Source: Salinicola endophyticus
GTDB taxonomy: Bacteria; Pseudomonadota; Gammaproteobacteria; Pseudomonadales; Halomonadaceae
Assembly: GCF_040536835.1 (NCBI RefSeq)
Contig: NZ_CP159578.1
Span: forward strand, 2,108,001-2,172,000
Length of the DNA: 64,000 bases
Direction: 5' to 3'
Shown here: positions 56,563 to 62,555 of the stretch, in pieces
Layout: each line of letters opens with the position of its first letter
Numbering within the stretch: position 1 is the first letter of the stretch
The notes under the pieces: generated by a model
The model's input: only the letters and a program-made list of their open reading frames with translations
Database searches by the model: none
What the model was told of the DNA's origin: nothing
Program-made: the position numbers and the translations under genes

Positions 56563-57450
56563 ATGATTCGCAAGGCTGTATTGCCCGTTGCCGGCTTCGG
56601 CACCCGCTGCCTGCCGGCGTCCAAGGCGATCCCCAAGGAGATGATCACCATCGTCGACAAGCCGGTGATCCAGTACGTGGTGAGCGAGGCGGTCAAGGCG
56701 GGGATCAAGGAGATCGTACTCGTCACCCATTCGTCCAAGAGCGCCATCGAGAACCACTTCGACAAGCACTTCGAGCTCGAGACCCAGCTCGAGGCCAAGG
56801 GCAAGCAGGCGCTGCTCGACGAGCTGCGCAATATCATCCCCGACGACGTCAACATCATCAGCGTGCGTCAGCCGGAGGCGCTCGGCCTGGGCCACGCGAT
56901 CCTGTGCGCCCGCCCGGTGGTCGGCGACGAGCCGTTCGCGGTGCTGCTGCCGGACGTGCTGATCGATGACGACAACGCGCCGCAGAACGATCTGGCCGGG
57001 ATGATCGCGGCCTATGAGGCCAGCGGCAAGGCGCAGATCATGGTCGAGACCGTGCCCCACGAGCTGACCTACAAGTACGGCATCGTCGCACTCGAGGGTG
57101 ACGAACCGGTCGCCGGGCAGAGCGCGCCGATGACCGGTGTGGTCGAGAAGCCCAAGGTCGAGGAGGCGCCGTCGACGCTGGCGGTGATCGGCCGCTATCT
57201 GCTGCCCGGCGAGATCTTCTCGCTGCTGGCCGAGACCCGGCCGGGTGCCGGCAACGAGATCCAGTTGACCGATGCCATCGAGGCGCTGCGCCGTGAATCC
57301 GGTGCCGAGGCCTACCGCATGCAGGGCCAGACCTACGACTGCGGCAGTCAGCTCGGCTATCTGGAAGCCACCCTGGCGTTGGGGCGCAAGCACCCGACGC
57401 TGGGCGAGGGGTTCCGCGAGTTGGTCAAGCAATACGCAGCCGAGGAATAA
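56563..57450 (+). CDS. galU: UTP-glucose-1-phosphate uridylyltransferase
   Basis: Makes UDP-glucose for polysaccharide and glycolipid synthesis. The 295-residue protein begins with the nucleotide-binding AVLPVAGFGTRCLPASKAIPKEM; VDKPVIQYVV, QPEALGLGHAILCA and NEIQLTDAIEAL are also typical. The ATG at 56563 follows AGGAAGGAATAACACG. The UDP-glucose dehydrogenase-like gene starts 4 bp after its stop, so they are co-transcribed. Confidence 0.96.
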   Translation: MIRKAVLPVAGFGTRCLPASKAIPKEMITIVDKPVIQYVVSEAVKAGIKEIVLVTHSSKSAIENHFDKHFELETQLEAKGKQALLDELRNIIPDDVNIISVRQPEALGLGHAILCARPVVGDEPFAVLLPDVLIDDDNAPQNDLAGMIAAYEASGKAQIMVETVPHELTYKYGIVALEGDEPVAGQSAPMTGVVEKPKVEEAPSTLAVIGRYLLPGEIFSLLAETRPGAGNEIQLTDAIEALRRESGAEAYRMQGQTYDCGSQLGYLEATLALGRKHPTLGEGFRELVKQYAAEE

Positions 57451-57454
57451 CGCC

Positions 57455-58735
57455 ATGCGGGTGGTCGTACACGGTAGCGAACTGGCAGCGGCCACCGCCG
57501 CTGCGGCGCTCTGCTCGGTAGGGCATCAGGTGACCTGGATGCCGCACGCCGACTTTCCCTGGGAGAGCCTCTCCCGGGCGGACTGGCTGATCAGCGAGCC
57601 GGGCCTGAAGGATCAGATTCTCGCCGGCGAAGCCTCGGGGCAGCTCGCCATCGTCGATCGGGTGGGCCCGGAGAGCGATGCCGAAGTGCACTGGCTGGCG
57701 CTGTCGCCGGATCAGCGCGAGGCTGCCGAGCGCTATGTCGAGGAGGTGCCGGGGCGGCAGACGACCCCCCTGGTGATCGTCAACAACTCGACCTTCCCCG
57801 TGGGGCAGACCGAGAAGCTGGAGGCGCAGCTGGGCCACGCCAGCCAGATTGCCGTGGCGCTGCCGGATCGGCTCGAGGAGGGGCGTGCCTGGGACACCTT
57901 CACCCGCCCGGCACACTGGCTGCTGGGTAGCGAGGACGAGTGGGCGACCCAGCAGATCCGTGAACTGCTGCGCGCCTTCAGTCGGCGTCACGAGGTCTAT
58001 CAGCTGATGCCGCGCAAGGCTGCCGAGCTGACCAAGCTGGCGATCAACGGCATGCTGGCCACGCGTATCAGCTTCATGAACGAGCTGGCAGGGCTCGCCG
58101 ACTCCCTGGGCGTCGACGTCGAGTACGTGCGCCAGGGCATGGGCGCCGATACTCGTATTGGTTTCGAGTATCTCTATCCCGGCTGCGGCTTTGGCGGTCC
58201 CAACTTCTCCCGCGATCTGATGCGCCTGGCCGATGTACAGCACTCTACCGGGCGCGAGTCGCATCTGCTCGAGCACGTGCTCGACATCAACGAGAGCAAG
58301 AAGGAGACGCTGTTCCGCAAGCTGTGGAATCACTTCCAGGGCGAGCTGGAAGGGCGCACGATCGCCATCTGGGGCGCGGCCTTCAAGCCGGGCACGGCGC
58401 GCATCGACCAGGCACCGGTGCTGACCATCCTCGAGGCGCTGTGGGCCCAGGGCGTCAAGGTCAAGATCCACGATCCGGCGGCCCTCCACGCGCTGGCGGA
58501 ACTCTATCCGGCGCATCCGCAGCTCGAATTCGTCGAAGGGGATTTCTACGCCGCCTGCGAAGGGGCCGACGCGCTGATGCTGGTCACCGAGTGGAAGTGC
58601 TACTGGAACCCGGACTGGCGGCGTCTGCTGCAGGCGTTGAAGACGCCGCTGATCCTCGATGGGCGCAACATCTTCGATCCCACCTACGTGGCCTCGCGCG
58701 GTTTCGTCTACCGCGGTATCGGCCGTCGCGCCTGA
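57455..58735 (+). CDS. UDP-glucose 6-dehydrogenase-like protein with altered active site
   Basis: A 426-residue homologue of UDP-glucose/GDP-mannose dehydrogenases. Conserved are the NNSTFPVGQTEKL strand, Lys194 and Asn198 (ELTKLAINGMLATRISFMNE), DTRIGFEYLYPGCGFGG and Asp254. The catalytic cysteine of GGSCFPKD is replaced: the motif reads GGPNFSRD with Asn250. The N-terminus (MRVVVHGSELAAATAAAAL) lacks the GxGxxG dinucleotide motif, and TDDxREAP reads TARIDQAP. Oxidation of UDP-glucose by the usual thiohemiacetal route is therefore unlikely. Tight linkage to galU suggests a UDP-glucose-related role. Confidence 0.82.
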   Translation: MRVVVHGSELAAATAAAALCSVGHQVTWMPHADFPWESLSRADWLISEPGLKDQILAGEASGQLAIVDRVGPESDAEVHWLALSPDQREAAERYVEEVPGRQTTPLVIVNNSTFPVGQTEKLEAQLGHASQIAVALPDRLEEGRAWDTFTRPAHWLLGSEDEWATQQIRELLRAFSRRHEVYQLMPRKAAELTKLAINGMLATRISFMNELAGLADSLGVDVEYVRQGMGADTRIGFEYLYPGCGFGGPNFSRDLMRLADVQHSTGRESHLLEHVLDINESKKETLFRKLWNHFQGELEGRTIAIWGAAFKPGTARIDQAPVLTILEALWAQGVKVKIHDPAALHALAELYPAHPQLEFVEGDFYAACEGADALMLVTEWKCYWNPDWRRLLQALKTPLILDGRNIFDPTYVASRGFVYRGIGRRA

Positions 58736-58745
58736 GGCCACCCCC

Positions 58746-58768
58746 GACCACCGCCATTGGCGGTGGTC
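58746..58768. terminator. Perfect 10-bp hairpin between convergent genes
   Basis: GACCACCGCC / GGCGGTGGTC with a 3-nt ATT loop, 11 bp after the UDP-glucose dehydrogenase-like stop and 13 bp before the stop of the convergent superoxide dismutase-like gene. A bidirectional terminator is likely, though the T content after it is low. Confidence 0.6.
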
Positions 58769-58780
58769 TCATTCAGCGTG

Positions 58781-59395
58781 TCACATTGCCTGCGCGCTCA
58801 CGGGCGGCAGGCCGAGCAGCAGCGTGACCGTCTCCCAGTTGAAGCGCGACCACAGCGCCGTGAAGTAGGCGCTGCGGTCGTCGCCGAAGTCGATGCGATA
58901 CGCCTCCTCGCACAGCGCGATGGCCAGCAGCGGCCGTATCCCCGGCGGTAGTTCGCCCTCGGGCGTCTCCCTCAGTGTCAGGGTCTCGTCCGAGGCCACG
59001 CCCAGCCAGCTGAAGCCTCCCGGTGCGGACTCGACCACGCGCTCTCTCCAGATCGACGCGAACCGTTCCCAGTCACCGAAATCGTGTGCCAGGCGGGCCT
59101 TCAATACCGCCTCGGGTGCTGACGGGCGCGCCGCCAAGCCGTGCCAGAACAGCGTCATGCCCCAGGCCTGGACCGCCGCCGGGCGCAGCTGCGCGGGGCC
59201 TTCGGCGGCAAGCGTCGCCAACGAGCGCGGGTCGTCGGCGGCCAGGGCCGCGTTCAGGGTCGTCAACTGTTGACGGTGGTAGTGGCTGTAGAGCAGATCG
59301 ATCTGGGCCCGTGACAGTGCCGGTTCCAGCGAGTGGCGCTCGAAGGGGAGCGCGGGAAGTTCGAATCGGACGTCTGGCGTCGCTCTCGTCGGCAT
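58781..59395 (-). CDS. Fe/Mn superoxide dismutase-fold protein lacking all metal ligands
   Basis: A 204-residue protein aligning end to end with Fe/Mn superoxide dismutases: ELPALPFERHSLEPALS at the N-terminus, AAVQAWGMTLFWHGL, GGFSWLGV, LLAIALCEEAYRIDF and SRFNWETV near the C-terminus. By alignment with E. coli SodB, the four ligands His26, His73, Asp156 and His160 correspond to Leu35, Met80, Ala160 and Glu164, and gateway Tyr34 to Gln43. It cannot bind the metal in the usual way, so a structural or binding role is likely. The ATG at 59395 has AGGAG 4 nt upstream. Divergent from the coiled-coil-tamA-tamB genes. Confidence 0.85.
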   Translation of the reverse strand: MPTRATPDVRFELPALPFERHSLEPALSRAQIDLLYSHYHRQQLTTLNAALAADDPRSLATLAAEGPAQLRPAAVQAWGMTLFWHGLAARPSAPEAVLKARLAHDFGDWERFASIWRERVVESAPGGFSWLGVASDETLTLRETPEGELPPGIRPLLAIALCEEAYRIDFGDDRSAYFTALWSRFNWETVTLLLGLPPVSAQAM

Positions 59396-59675
59396 GGGGC
59401 TCCTGGTAGCGGTGAAGCGTGTGGGTGGGAGATCATGTAGCTGGGGCATGTGGTTTTAACTGTGGCCGTGAAACGCGATTGCGCGCTGGCTAGCATGCCT
59501 GGCAAGCGCTGCCAAGCCTAGGCTTGCGGGGCGCTTTCACGTAACGTGACGCAGTGAGCGCCGGGGTCGACCGCGTCGGCTGCCCGGCGCTCATCCCAGA
59601 TCTCAAGGGAGATGCTGAATCCAGCATGCAGCGTTTCCCAAGTCTGCATCTTCATCGTTAAGGTACACGACGGCA

Positions 59676-60695
59676 ATGCCCCCCAATTCCGACGAGGCGC
59701 GCACTGCGCAGACGATCGTTCCCGACCGCGGCGATATGAGCGTGCGCCGCGCAGGCTCACATGGCAGCCATGGCGCTGGTCCGTCTGCCGGGCGCCGGCC
59801 ACCGCGAGTCTGGCCCCTGTGGTGCCTGACGCTGCTGCTCGGCGGCGCGCTCGCCGCCGGCGGCTGGCAGTATTGGCAGGACCGGCAAGCCTTCGAGGCG
59901 CGACTCGCCAAGCTCAATCAGCGCCTCGACGCCACGGGCAATACCCTGGACGCCTCGGGAGAGAGCCTGCGTGGCGAGTTCGACCGCCTGCGCGGTCAGC
60001 TCGAGGCCACGCGCGCCGCTGTCGGCAGCCTCGAGACCCGGGTCGCCCAGGGAAGCAGCGACGATCTCGAGACGCGCGTGGCCGCGCTGAAAAGCAGCCT
60101 GGACGACCAGCAGGGCGTCATCGCGGCGCTGCAGACCTCGCTCTCGGCGCTGGAGAGCACCGCCAAGGATGCCCGCGCCACCCTCGCCACTCGTCTGCAG
60201 ACGCTGAGCGAGGCCCAGCAGCGGCAGGCGACACAGCTCACCGAACAGGAGCAGGCACTGGCTGAGAACGCCAAGGCGGATCAGGCGCTAGTGGCGCGGG
60301 TCGACACGCTGGCCCAGACGCAGAAGAGCCAGGCCGAGGCGCTCGAGGCGGCTTCCGATAACGATCTGCCCAAGCGCGTCGATCAATTGAGCACGCAGCT
60401 GTCCGACCTCGACCAGCGGGTCGACGATGTGGCTGGGCGTAAGGTGCCCTCGGCGCAGTCGATCGAGCAGCTGCGCAGCGCCGTGGCGGAACTTCGTCAG
60501 GGTCAGACCGCTCTTAGTGCAGGGATCGAATCGCTGCAGTCACGTCTTGCCAATCTGCCCAAGGGAATCAGCAGCGCGCAGATGAAGACCTTGAACGAGC
60601 GCATCGCCTCCCTGGAGGCGAGCCGTGCCCAGCTGACGCGGCGCGTCACCGGTCTGATCACCGACGTTTCTCAACTGCAGCGCCGCGGAGGCTGA
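59676..60695 (+). CDS. Single-pass membrane protein with long periplasmic coiled coil
   Basis: Unrecognised protein of 339 residues. After a polar N-terminus of about 45 residues there is one membrane segment (WPLWCLTLLLGGALAAGGWQ, about 46-65), then nearly 270 residues of heptad-like Leu/Ala/Glu/Gln sequence (SLETRVAQGSSDDLETRVAAL, LNERIASLEASRAQLTRRV) predicted as coiled coil, outside the cytosol if the N-terminus is inside. The gene ends 3 bp before tamA, so it is expressed with the TamA/TamB outer-membrane assembly system. A scaffold or spacer role is an inference; HemX-like proteins have a similar layout. Confidence 0.8.
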   Translation: MPPNSDEARTAQTIVPDRGDMSVRRAGSHGSHGAGPSAGRRPPRVWPLWCLTLLLGGALAAGGWQYWQDRQAFEARLAKLNQRLDATGNTLDASGESLRGEFDRLRGQLEATRAAVGSLETRVAQGSSDDLETRVAALKSSLDDQQGVIAALQTSLSALESTAKDARATLATRLQTLSEAQQRQATQLTEQEQALAENAKADQALVARVDTLAQTQKSQAEALEAASDNDLPKRVDQLSTQLSDLDQRVDDVAGRKVPSAQSIEQLRSAVAELRQGQTALSAGIESLQSRLANLPKGISSAQMKTLNERIASLEASRAQLTRRVTGLITDVSQLQRRGG

Positions 60696-60698
60696 TGC

Positions 60699-62555
60699 AT
60701 GCCCCAGCTCAAGGTCCTACGGACGGGACTGACGCTACTCACACTACCCATCGCCACACTCCCCCTTGCAAGTCAGGCCTGGGCGCTGGATGTGGAGGTG
60801 AAAGGCATCAGCGGCGCGCCGGCCGACAATATCGTCAATATCCTCTCCGAGCTGGAACCTGACAGTCAGGCCACCCGCGAGCGCCTCGACGGCGTGGTAC
60901 GGCAGCGCGCCGAGCAGGCGCTGCAGGCTTACGGCTACTATGGCGCGACCCTGGCCACTCACTACCCGGACAAGGACAACGCGCGGGTGGTGATCGACGT
61001 CAAGCCCGGCGAGCGCACCCGAATCACCAAGGTCGATGCCGAGCTCGAGGGCGATGCCCGCCAGGACGACGCCTTCACCAAGGCCATGGCGAACAACCCG
61101 CTCAAGGTCGGCGACCCGCTGGTGCACTCGCGCTACGATGGCTTCAAGAGCCGGCTCTCGACGCTGGCGCTGGAACGCGGCTATTTCGATGCGCGATTCA
61201 GCCAGCAGCGCATCGAAGTGCGCCCGTGGGAGGAGAGTGCGCGCATCTATCTGGAGCTCGACAGCGGCACCCGCTACCGCTTCGGCCACGTGCGCTTCCG
61301 CGGCAGCCAGATCGAGCCCGAGCGGCTGCGCAACCTGGTGCCATTCGCCCCGGGCGACCCGTATATTGCTGGCGACCTCGCCACCCTCAATCAGAATCTC
61401 GGCCAGACCGATTGGTTCCGTGGTGTCGCGGTGCGCCCGCGGGTCAACGAGGATACGCCCTCGTTCGCGCCCAGCCTGTGGTGGCAGGAGGCGACCGGGC
61501 GCGATACCACCGCTGACAACGCCCGCGTGCTCGGCGGCCCGGGGCTGCGCGCCGCGCGCGAGCTGACCGATAGCCAGCCCAAGGTGGTGCCGGTGGATGT
61601 CGAAGTGACCCCGGCCGATCGCCACCAGTTCGAGGTGGGTATCGGTTATGCCACCGACGTGGGACCGCGCACCCAGTTCTCGTGGACCATGCCGTGGCTC
61701 AACCGCTACGGCCACAGCCTGACCAATTCGCTCTACCTGTCGTCGCCGGAGCAGCGCTTCTCGGGCGAGTACACCATTCCCCTGGCCAACCCGCTGCGCG
61801 ACAGCTACCACCTGCGCTACGGCCTGGAGAGCGTCGACAACGAGGACACCAAGAGCTTCGAGAGCTCGGTGCAGCTGGCGCGGCACTGGGAGTTCGCCAA
61901 CGGCTGGAATCAGGATCTCTACTGGCAGACCACCTACGAGGACTTCACCCAGGCCGATCAGGACGACGCGGTACTGCTGCTCTATCCCGGGATCAGCTGG
62001 TCACGCACACGCAAGCGCAATCCGACCTTTCCCAGCTGGGGGGACCGGCAGCAGCTCACGCTGGAGTGGTCGGACCCCGCCTGGGGCTCGGACGCGCGCT
62101 TCGTTAGGACCACCTTCAGCACCCAGTGGATCCGTATGCTGGGCAGCGAGAACCGCTTCCTGTGGCGCCTCGGCGGCGGCGCCATGGCCACCGATACCTT
62201 CGACAAGGTGCCACCATCGCTGCGTTTCTTCGCCGGTGGCGACCAGAGCATCCGCGGCTACGGCTATGAGAGCCTGTCACCGGAGAACGCCGACGGCGAG
62301 CTGCTCGGCGGCCAGCAGATGCTCACCGGCAGCCTCGAATACCAGCGCCACCTCAGTGGCAACTTCTGGGGCGCGAGCTTCATCGACAGCGGCAACGCCT
62401 TCGACGACTGGTGGCCGAACACGCTCAAGACCGGTGCCGGTCTGGGCATTCGCTGGATATCACCCGTGGGGCCGATTCGCTTCGATATCGCCCATCCGTT
62501 TGACGACGAGGAGGACTCTTGGCGTCTCCATTTCTCCATCGGACCGGAGTTCTGA
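60699..62555 (+). CDS. tamA: Translocation and assembly module protein TamA
   Basis: Outer-membrane protein of 618 residues in the BamA/Omp85 superfamily, acting with TamB in autotransporter insertion and phospholipid transport. A signal peptide ends at about residue 29 (ASQAWA), three POTRA domains follow, then a 16-strand barrel (FEVGIGYATDVGPRTQFSWT onward, with the RFFAGGDQSIRGYGYESLSP lid loop and the C-terminal GPIRFDIAHPF). Compared with E. coli TamA about 45 extra residues (NEDTPSFAPSLWWQEATG region) lie in POTRA3. tamB overlaps its end. Confidence 0.94.
   Translation: MPQLKVLRTGLTLLTLPIATLPLASQAWALDVEVKGISGAPADNIVNILSELEPDSQATRERLDGVVRQRAEQALQAYGYYGATLATHYPDKDNARVVIDVKPGERTRITKVDAELEGDARQDDAFTKAMANNPLKVGDPLVHSRYDGFKSRLSTLALERGYFDARFSQQRIEVRPWEESARIYLELDSGTRYRFGHVRFRGSQIEPERLRNLVPFAPGDPYIAGDLATLNQNLGQTDWFRGVAVRPRVNEDTPSFAPSLWWQEATGRDTTADNARVLGGPGLRAARELTDSQPKVVPVDVEVTPADRHQFEVGIGYATDVGPRTQFSWTMPWLNRYGHSLTNSLYLSSPEQRFSGEYTIPLANPLRDSYHLRYGLESVDNEDTKSFESSVQLARHWEFANGWNQDLYWQTTYEDFTQADQDDAVLLLYPGISWSRTRKRNPTFPSWGDRQQLTLEWSDPAWGSDARFVRTTFSTQWIRMLGSENRFLWRLGGGAMATDTFDKVPPSLRFFAGGDQSIRGYGYESLSPENADGELLGGQQMLTGSLEYQRHLSGNFWGASFIDSGNAFDDWWPNTLKTGAGLGIRWISPVGPIRFDIAHPFDDEEDSWRLHFSIGPEF

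Follow-up and report, generated by a model that had tools for sequence, protein, structure and literature searches.

In the 64,000-nucleotide stretch of Salinicola endophyticus DNA analyzed here (contig NZ_CP159578.1, positions 2,108,001 to 2,172,000; hereafter the window), a gene on the minus strand encodes a protein of the iron/manganese superoxide dismutase (Fe/Mn-SOD) family in which all four metal ligands have been replaced. Judged by gene order and sequence comparison, this gene is the Halomonadaceae sodB orthologue altered in place, which the first-pass annotation of this DNA had missed, as it had the parallel cases and intermediates found elsewhere in the family. Its product is likely to be a metal-free, folded cytoplasmic binding or scaffold protein without dismutase activity, with a manganese SOD (MnSOD) covering superoxide removal.

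The open reading frame proposed for the SOD-like gene is present as annotated, and the homology of its product to Fe/Mn-SOD is far above chance and covers both domains (Sod_Fe_C, 2.9e-13, 50.2 bits against a cut-off of 20.9; Sod_Fe_N, 8.8e-7, 29.7 bits against 27). Scores against the NCBIfam SOD equivalogs lay below their curated cut-offs (NF007832, 79.3/348 bits; NF041312, 44.5/300; NF008177, 43.5/363). The SOD fold was predicted confidently by modelling, in keeping with the original claim that it is retained. Residue equivalences were taken from an alignment of the window protein to E. coli SodB, whose numbering is used for ligand positions. The alignment bore out the replacement of all four ligands (His26 by Leu35, His73 by Met80, Asp156 by Ala160 and His160 by Glu164) and of Tyr34 by Gln43, with the framework segments QAW, FW and NWE retained. 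It also revealed further substitutions, namely His30 to Tyr39, Trp122 to Phe, Trp158 to Cys and Tyr163 to Arg167. The window protein retains Gln69, which is Glu in 14 of the 18 Salinicola sequences. Among these 18 sequences the only near-invariant His, Cys, Asp or Glu columns are E12, E19, H21, E24, D33, H38, H40, H85, E/D164, D169 and E188. None of them falls at SodB position 26, 73 or 156, where the genus has Leu, Leu/Met and Ala/Thr/Ser/Pro, respectively, and E/D164 sits at position 160, which rules out a shift of the ligands to nearby residues. On this comparison the window protein belongs to the SOD family by ancestry but lacks the three His and one Asp by which the enzyme is defined.

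The gene was found in all 18 Salinicola genomes searched, the window's included, at 289–334 bits compared with at most 168 for any other family match listed. The matched stretch is free of stops in 17 of them (genome G188 carries one TGA), and an open frame of 194–227 amino acids is present at all 17 other genus loci. All 20 proteins returned by a protein search, the first being the window's own, lack the ligands; those carrying an organism name are Salinicola, except for one labelled Gammaproteobacteria bacterium MFB021. With the gene in 18 of 18 genus genomes, misassembly or restriction to a single decayed genome is ruled out. Across 12 genus pairs, the ratio of nonsynonymous to synonymous divergence (dN/dS, NG86) was 0.08–0.30 for the SOD-like gene, 0.01–0.04 for ugd and 0.09–0.20 for the coiled-coil gene; the genus protein is under purifying selection as a protein, equal to that on its coiled-coil neighbour or somewhat weaker. 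Because of these selection data we infer a retained non-catalytic role, new or old. Selection for a non-enzymatic role had been proposed at the outset; the loss of the site with the fold kept, the retention throughout the genus and the purifying selection all speak for such a putative role.

Conservation within the genus is highest in the N-terminal segment and the start of helix 1 (Table 1), with lower mean majority fractions elsewhere (residues 74–88, 0.83; 156–190, 0.79; 42–73, 89–128 and 129–155, 0.55–0.59). Synonymous codon differences at invariant residues were equally frequent inside this block (0.44, 23 sites) and elsewhere (0.44, 21 sites); it is therefore the protein and not the DNA that is conserved, and a DNA-level (regulatory) cause is ruled out. 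At 37 positions one residue is common to the genus proteins and the complete orthologues, with a frequency of at least 90% in each set. Another 31 positions are fixed in the genus for a different state, which is a gap in four of them; SodB positions 9–32 account for 13 of the 31. Newly fixed residues include R20, H21, S22, R29, Q31, L35, S37, R41 and R167.

The gene order of the window, galU-ugd-[SOD, opposite strand]-coiled coil-tamA-tamB, recurs in the 17 genus loci from named records. Modicisalibacter muralis (L020) carries a SOD with all four ligands in the slot between galU-ugd and the coiled-coil gene, and the SODs that occupy the same slot in Halomonas ramblicola (L068) and H. litopenaei (L077) have lost ligands. 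The M. muralis iron SOD (FeSOD; L020:8001-8555, = L183) has Asn at the otherwise conserved His31. Because complete FeSODs of related genera occupy it, the slot beside coiled coil-tamA is ancestral. The divergent orientation relative to the coiled-coil/tamA/tamB operon is real, as noted before; a link to TamAB is not supported, since complete FeSOD genes lie in the same place, and a TamAB role drawn from position was rejected.

Our survey covered 150 Halomonadaceae loci, a non-random sample of 100 regions hand-chosen from the genome-search rows listed, 30 from 39 picked genomes, 22 from a set of 80 loci, and the window, with duplicates dropped before counting (L020, L068 and L077, identical to L183, L194 and L083). 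The family genome search scored at most 11 candidates per genome and gave matches in at least 203 of 275 genomes; the 80-locus set, with L067 left out, held 17 genus loci, L068 and L077 without ligands and 60 loci with all four. In the survey 101 loci were complete (two duplicate pairs remain here, L019 = L127 and L021 = L143, all without neighbours, so that distinct loci number 148), 14 had intact ligands with Tyr34 and/or Gln69 changed, and 35 had lost ligands, 30 of them all four. The ligand-lost loci comprise the 18 of the genus, 16 others in the slot (including L089, where the contig ends and ugd is missing) and a single locus, L182, with none of the four neighbours in the fetched stretch. 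Tyr34 is retained in none of the 35 and Gln69 in 10; of the 14 intermediates, 13 have another residue (His, Cys, Ser or Phe) in place of Tyr34 and 10 have one in place of Gln69 (Glu in nine, Asp in one). Comparison of the three classes suggests that second-sphere residues were lost before the ligands. Similar substitutions recur across the 35 loci, with His26 replaced by Leu in 21 and Arg in 13, His73 by Leu in 26, Met in four and Phe in three, and Gln69 by Glu in 20.

Further erosion was seen in another genus, g23, where L182:1495-2070 (minus strand) keeps His26 and His73 and has Gly and Asn in place of Asp156 and His160. In genus g10, L091-L093 and L109 in the same slot keep all ligands and have Val or Ile at His30, L109 also having Val at Tyr163 and Leu at Tyr76. 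A profile of 14 ligand-less proteins from other genera matched 2327 proteins at ≤1e-10 among 8000 scored; 17 matches checked by eye, among 120 listed, comprised seven ligand-less proteins and 10 with all ligands. An order-wide search gave a match in 307 of 390 genomes, ligand state not being part of the count.

Phylogenetic trees of ugd and of the SOD proteins were both made by a quick method and contain weakly resolved inner branches (32 of 105 and 23 of 77, respectively). On the ugd tree (110 rows) the ligand-less state needs five changes, four of them forced by branches with SH-aLRT of at least 95, and the second-sphere state needs 11. A single origin was rejected on this tree, as uniting all ligand-less rows costs 377 log units (p-AU 1.8e-51). 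Provided that the SOD gene was inherited along with ugd, ligand loss probably occurred about five times, in Salinicola; H. ramblicola and nine relatives; L077/L083 with L096; L090 with L101; and L094. Five changes are also needed on the SOD tree, L182 included (80 rows, 30 of them hand-chosen complete family members, changed columns left out), one grouping of long branches being marked as unreliable.

The genome of the window strain holds two Sod_Fe_C genes, the window gene and a complete MnSOD at 4.23 Mb. A complete four-ligand MnSOD was present in all 20 genomes read (13 of the 18 from outside the genus with a ligand-less SOD, and seven from within it), and the 19 second SODs fetched from genomes with an eroded locus were all MnSODs with four ligands. 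A second strong SOD accompanied 33/33 ligand-less, 14/14 second-sphere and 42/60 complete ugd-linked loci (Fisher p 9.4e-6, a test that ignores relatedness and counts SODs by Pfam Sod_Fe_C, so that the ligand-less gene may be among those counted). When independent pairs were compared, the association lost significance, with 0–2 of 11 pairs informative. SOD redundancy was probably the condition for ligand loss.

We propose that MnSOD took over superoxide removal, which would have freed the second SOD to change; the second-sphere residues would have gone first (Tyr34, often with Gln69 to Glu) and then the metal site. The folded protein would have kept a use in the cytoplasm, for binding or as a scaffold, with no bound Fe or Mn and no dismutase activity. 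Its likeliest contact surface would be residues 10–41 (..FELPALPFERHSLEPxxSRAQxDLLYSHYHR..), proposed because this stretch, which runs from the N-terminal segment into the beginning of helix 1, is the most conserved part and has many newly fixed residues, in several cases Arg or His (R20, H21, R29, H38, R41). The monomer model gives residues 11–30 moderate confidence only (65–68 pLDDT), and they might be ordered by the presumed partner. A basic RNA-binding or ribosomal-type protein is unsupported given the overall acidity of the genus proteins (mean pI 5.5, mean net charge −7.9). A bolder and less likely version is that the FeSOD of Halomonadaceae has from the start combined catalysis with a structural function residing in its N-terminal segment and fold; MnSOD would then have taken over the enzymatic work in several lineages, and the metal site would have disappeared in parallel along one route (Tyr34, then Gln69, then the ligands), exposing the hidden role.

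Several observations weigh against a retained binding or scaffold role reached by repeated loss. The SOD tree does not reject a single ligand-less clade (p 0.068) and its well-supported branches force one change only; because of this, the SOD gene may instead have been replaced in place by recombination. Complete SODs have lower dN/dS (0–0.23, 10 pairs) and ligand-less proteins of other genera higher (0.16–0.51, nine pairs), the latter being more loosely constrained than the genus protein. Outside the genus, the segment behind the ligand loop is shortened in 13 of 17 ligand-less loci (24–29 residues compared with 34), as against 0/18 within it. Mean pairwise identity at positions 1–36 is 0.92 in complete orthologues compared with 0.86 in the genus and 0.58 in other ligand-less proteins; the segment is thus highly conserved in complete FeSODs too, and folding may account for some of that conservation. 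When scaled to ugd, synonymous divergence is higher in the ligand-less genes, with a median of 1.46 over 20 ligand-less pairs compared with 0.51 over 10 complete pairs (p 1e-4, which is too low because the pairs have branches in common). Lys is almost wholly replaced by Arg (means of 16.8 Arg and 0.6 Lys, compared with 2.5 and 9.7 in complete orthologues); the window protein itself, with 17 Arg and one Lys, is more extreme than the four neighbour proteins counted. The raised synonymous divergence and the Lys-to-Arg shift would fit expression below that of the enzyme SOD and loosened constraint.

Such features are also those of slow decay, in which an FeSOD gene under relaxed selection after the MnSOD takeover would yield proteins made and folded yet roleless, the genes being on their way out. 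Besides the raised dN/dS, the relaxed synonymous constraint, the Lys-to-Arg drift and the shortening in several lineages, this account draws on the second strong SOD in the genomes of all ligand-less and second-sphere ugd-linked loci, and on one out-of-frame copy. That copy (L226:501-1066, in the 76% complete genome G096) is a ligand-less SOD with its halves in different frames, which points to gene decay or to an error in sequencing. We nevertheless consider slow decay unlikely, as the second-SOD association is not significant by independent pairs, the genus gene keeps a dN/dS of 0.08–0.30 after ligand loss, is kept in 18/18 genomes and is open at the 17 other genus loci, and the nine newly fixed residues named above are not expected from drift alone.

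Compared with a metal-free binding or scaffold protein, a new or altered metal or cofactor site built from H21, H38, the old H40, H85 and E/D164, for other chemistry or sensing, appears very improbable. H21 (18/18) and H38 (17/18) of the genus do replace Asn/Lys of the complete orthologues, and position 160 is Glu or Asp in all 18 sequences; however, former ligand positions 26, 73 and 156 are now mostly a greasy pocket, H40 (position 31) and H85 (position 78) are also His in complete family SODs, and H21 lies within the low-confidence stretch of the model. That the pseudo-SOD tunes MnSOD in mixed dimers is hardly credible: the two share a fold and complete MnSOD occurs in 20/20 genomes read, but the residues that we take to form the SOD dimer bridge are changed in the ligand-less proteins (Glu159 in 21/35, His160 in 35/35, Tyr163 in 35/35 and His30 in 31/35, gaps counted as changed).

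Table 1. Features of the pseudo-SOD gene and its surroundings (window positions), and loci of the natural intermediates.
Feature	Position or loci	Strand	Remarks
Pseudo-SOD gene	58781..59395	-	ATG at 59395, stop at 58781 included; 204 amino acids
AGGAG, putative Shine-Dalgarno-like sequence	59400..59404	-	4 bases upstream of ATG; putative function
N-terminal segment and start of helix 1, codons 10-41	59273..59368	-	most conserved part in genus, mean majority fraction 0.93
Codon 35, Leu at ligand His26	59291..59293	-	Leu in 18/18 genus sequences
Codon 43, Gln at Tyr34	59267..59269	-	alignment to SodB
Codon 80, Met at ligand His73	59156..59158	-	genus: Leu 14/18, Met 4/18
Codon 160, Ala at ligand Asp156	58916..58918	-	alignment to SodB
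Codon 164, Glu at ligand His160	58904..58906	-	genus: Glu 10/18, Asp 8/18
galU-like nucleotidyltransferase, ancestral neighbour	56563..57450	+	Pfam NTP_transferase; synteny
ugd-like UDP-glucose dehydrogenase, ancestral neighbour	57455..58735	+	Pfam; synteny; used for tree
Coiled-coil protein, divergent neighbour	59676..60695	+	synteny; Pfam
tamA	60699..62555	+	POTRA_TamA_1 and Omp85
Intermediates	L084-L088, L120, L131, L140, L177, L185, L191, L195, L197, L198		FeSODs with intact ligands, Tyr34 and/or Gln69 changed naturally

No sigma-70-like promoter or terminator was found in a scan of 58700-59720. The coiled-coil protein has only weak coiled-coil-type Pfam matches; the gene diverges faster than ugd and tamA and adjoins the SOD in most of the syntenic loci inspected. 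Both tamB and galU of Salinicola tamaricis F01 (L004:3414-4777 and L004:9946-10829) are split in that record into two matching pieces that abut or overlap, a pattern suggestive of assembly frameshifts. The tamA match of S. salarius 1A01339 (L011:5072-6589) ends at residue 517 and has an unusually high dN/dS of 0.29 against L016, likely through a frame error.

With E. coli FeSOD (SodB, SodFM family; 1isa, Q69E form 2nyb/2bkb) the window protein has ancestry and whole-length fold in common; it differs in that all four ligands, Tyr34, His30 and Tyr163 are replaced. Against the PDB, the ligand-less profile A3 scored highest with the Q69E mutant, slightly ahead of the wild type (169.5 compared with 168.3 bits), probably because Glu69 is frequent in the profile. 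The Glu found at Gln69 in natural intermediates is the change of the engineered mutant 2nyb. Re-use of the SOD fold without the site of the enzyme has a precedent in the mitochondrial ribosomal proteins mS42/mS43, which resemble the window protein in this respect but are subunits of a eukaryotic ribosome; they were absent from the best 60 of 165 PDB sequence matches and from the 50 entries listed in a second comparison. In the plastid RNA polymerase, PAP9/FSD2 and PAP4/FSD3 are FeSOD-family proteins within a large complex, away from the usual soluble role; PAP9 is reported to coordinate a metal (zinc in the recombinant protein) through FeSOD-conserved residues, whereas the window protein lacks these ligands (PMC8278866).

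A survey of Fe/Mn-SODs in 3,011 genomes describes the four ligands as universally conserved (PMC10172142); ligand loss in place, probably several times, in a bacterial family contrasts with that description. Our own literature search, at the level of titles and abstract beginnings and mostly excluding subscription journals, found no bacterial Fe/Mn-SOD without ligands, a weak negative. The database name 'Fe-Mn family superoxide dismutase', borne by several ligand-less proteins, can mislead about activity. With complete, second-sphere and ligand-less forms at one conserved locus, the Halomonadaceae offer a natural series for the change from metalloenzyme to pseudoenzyme.
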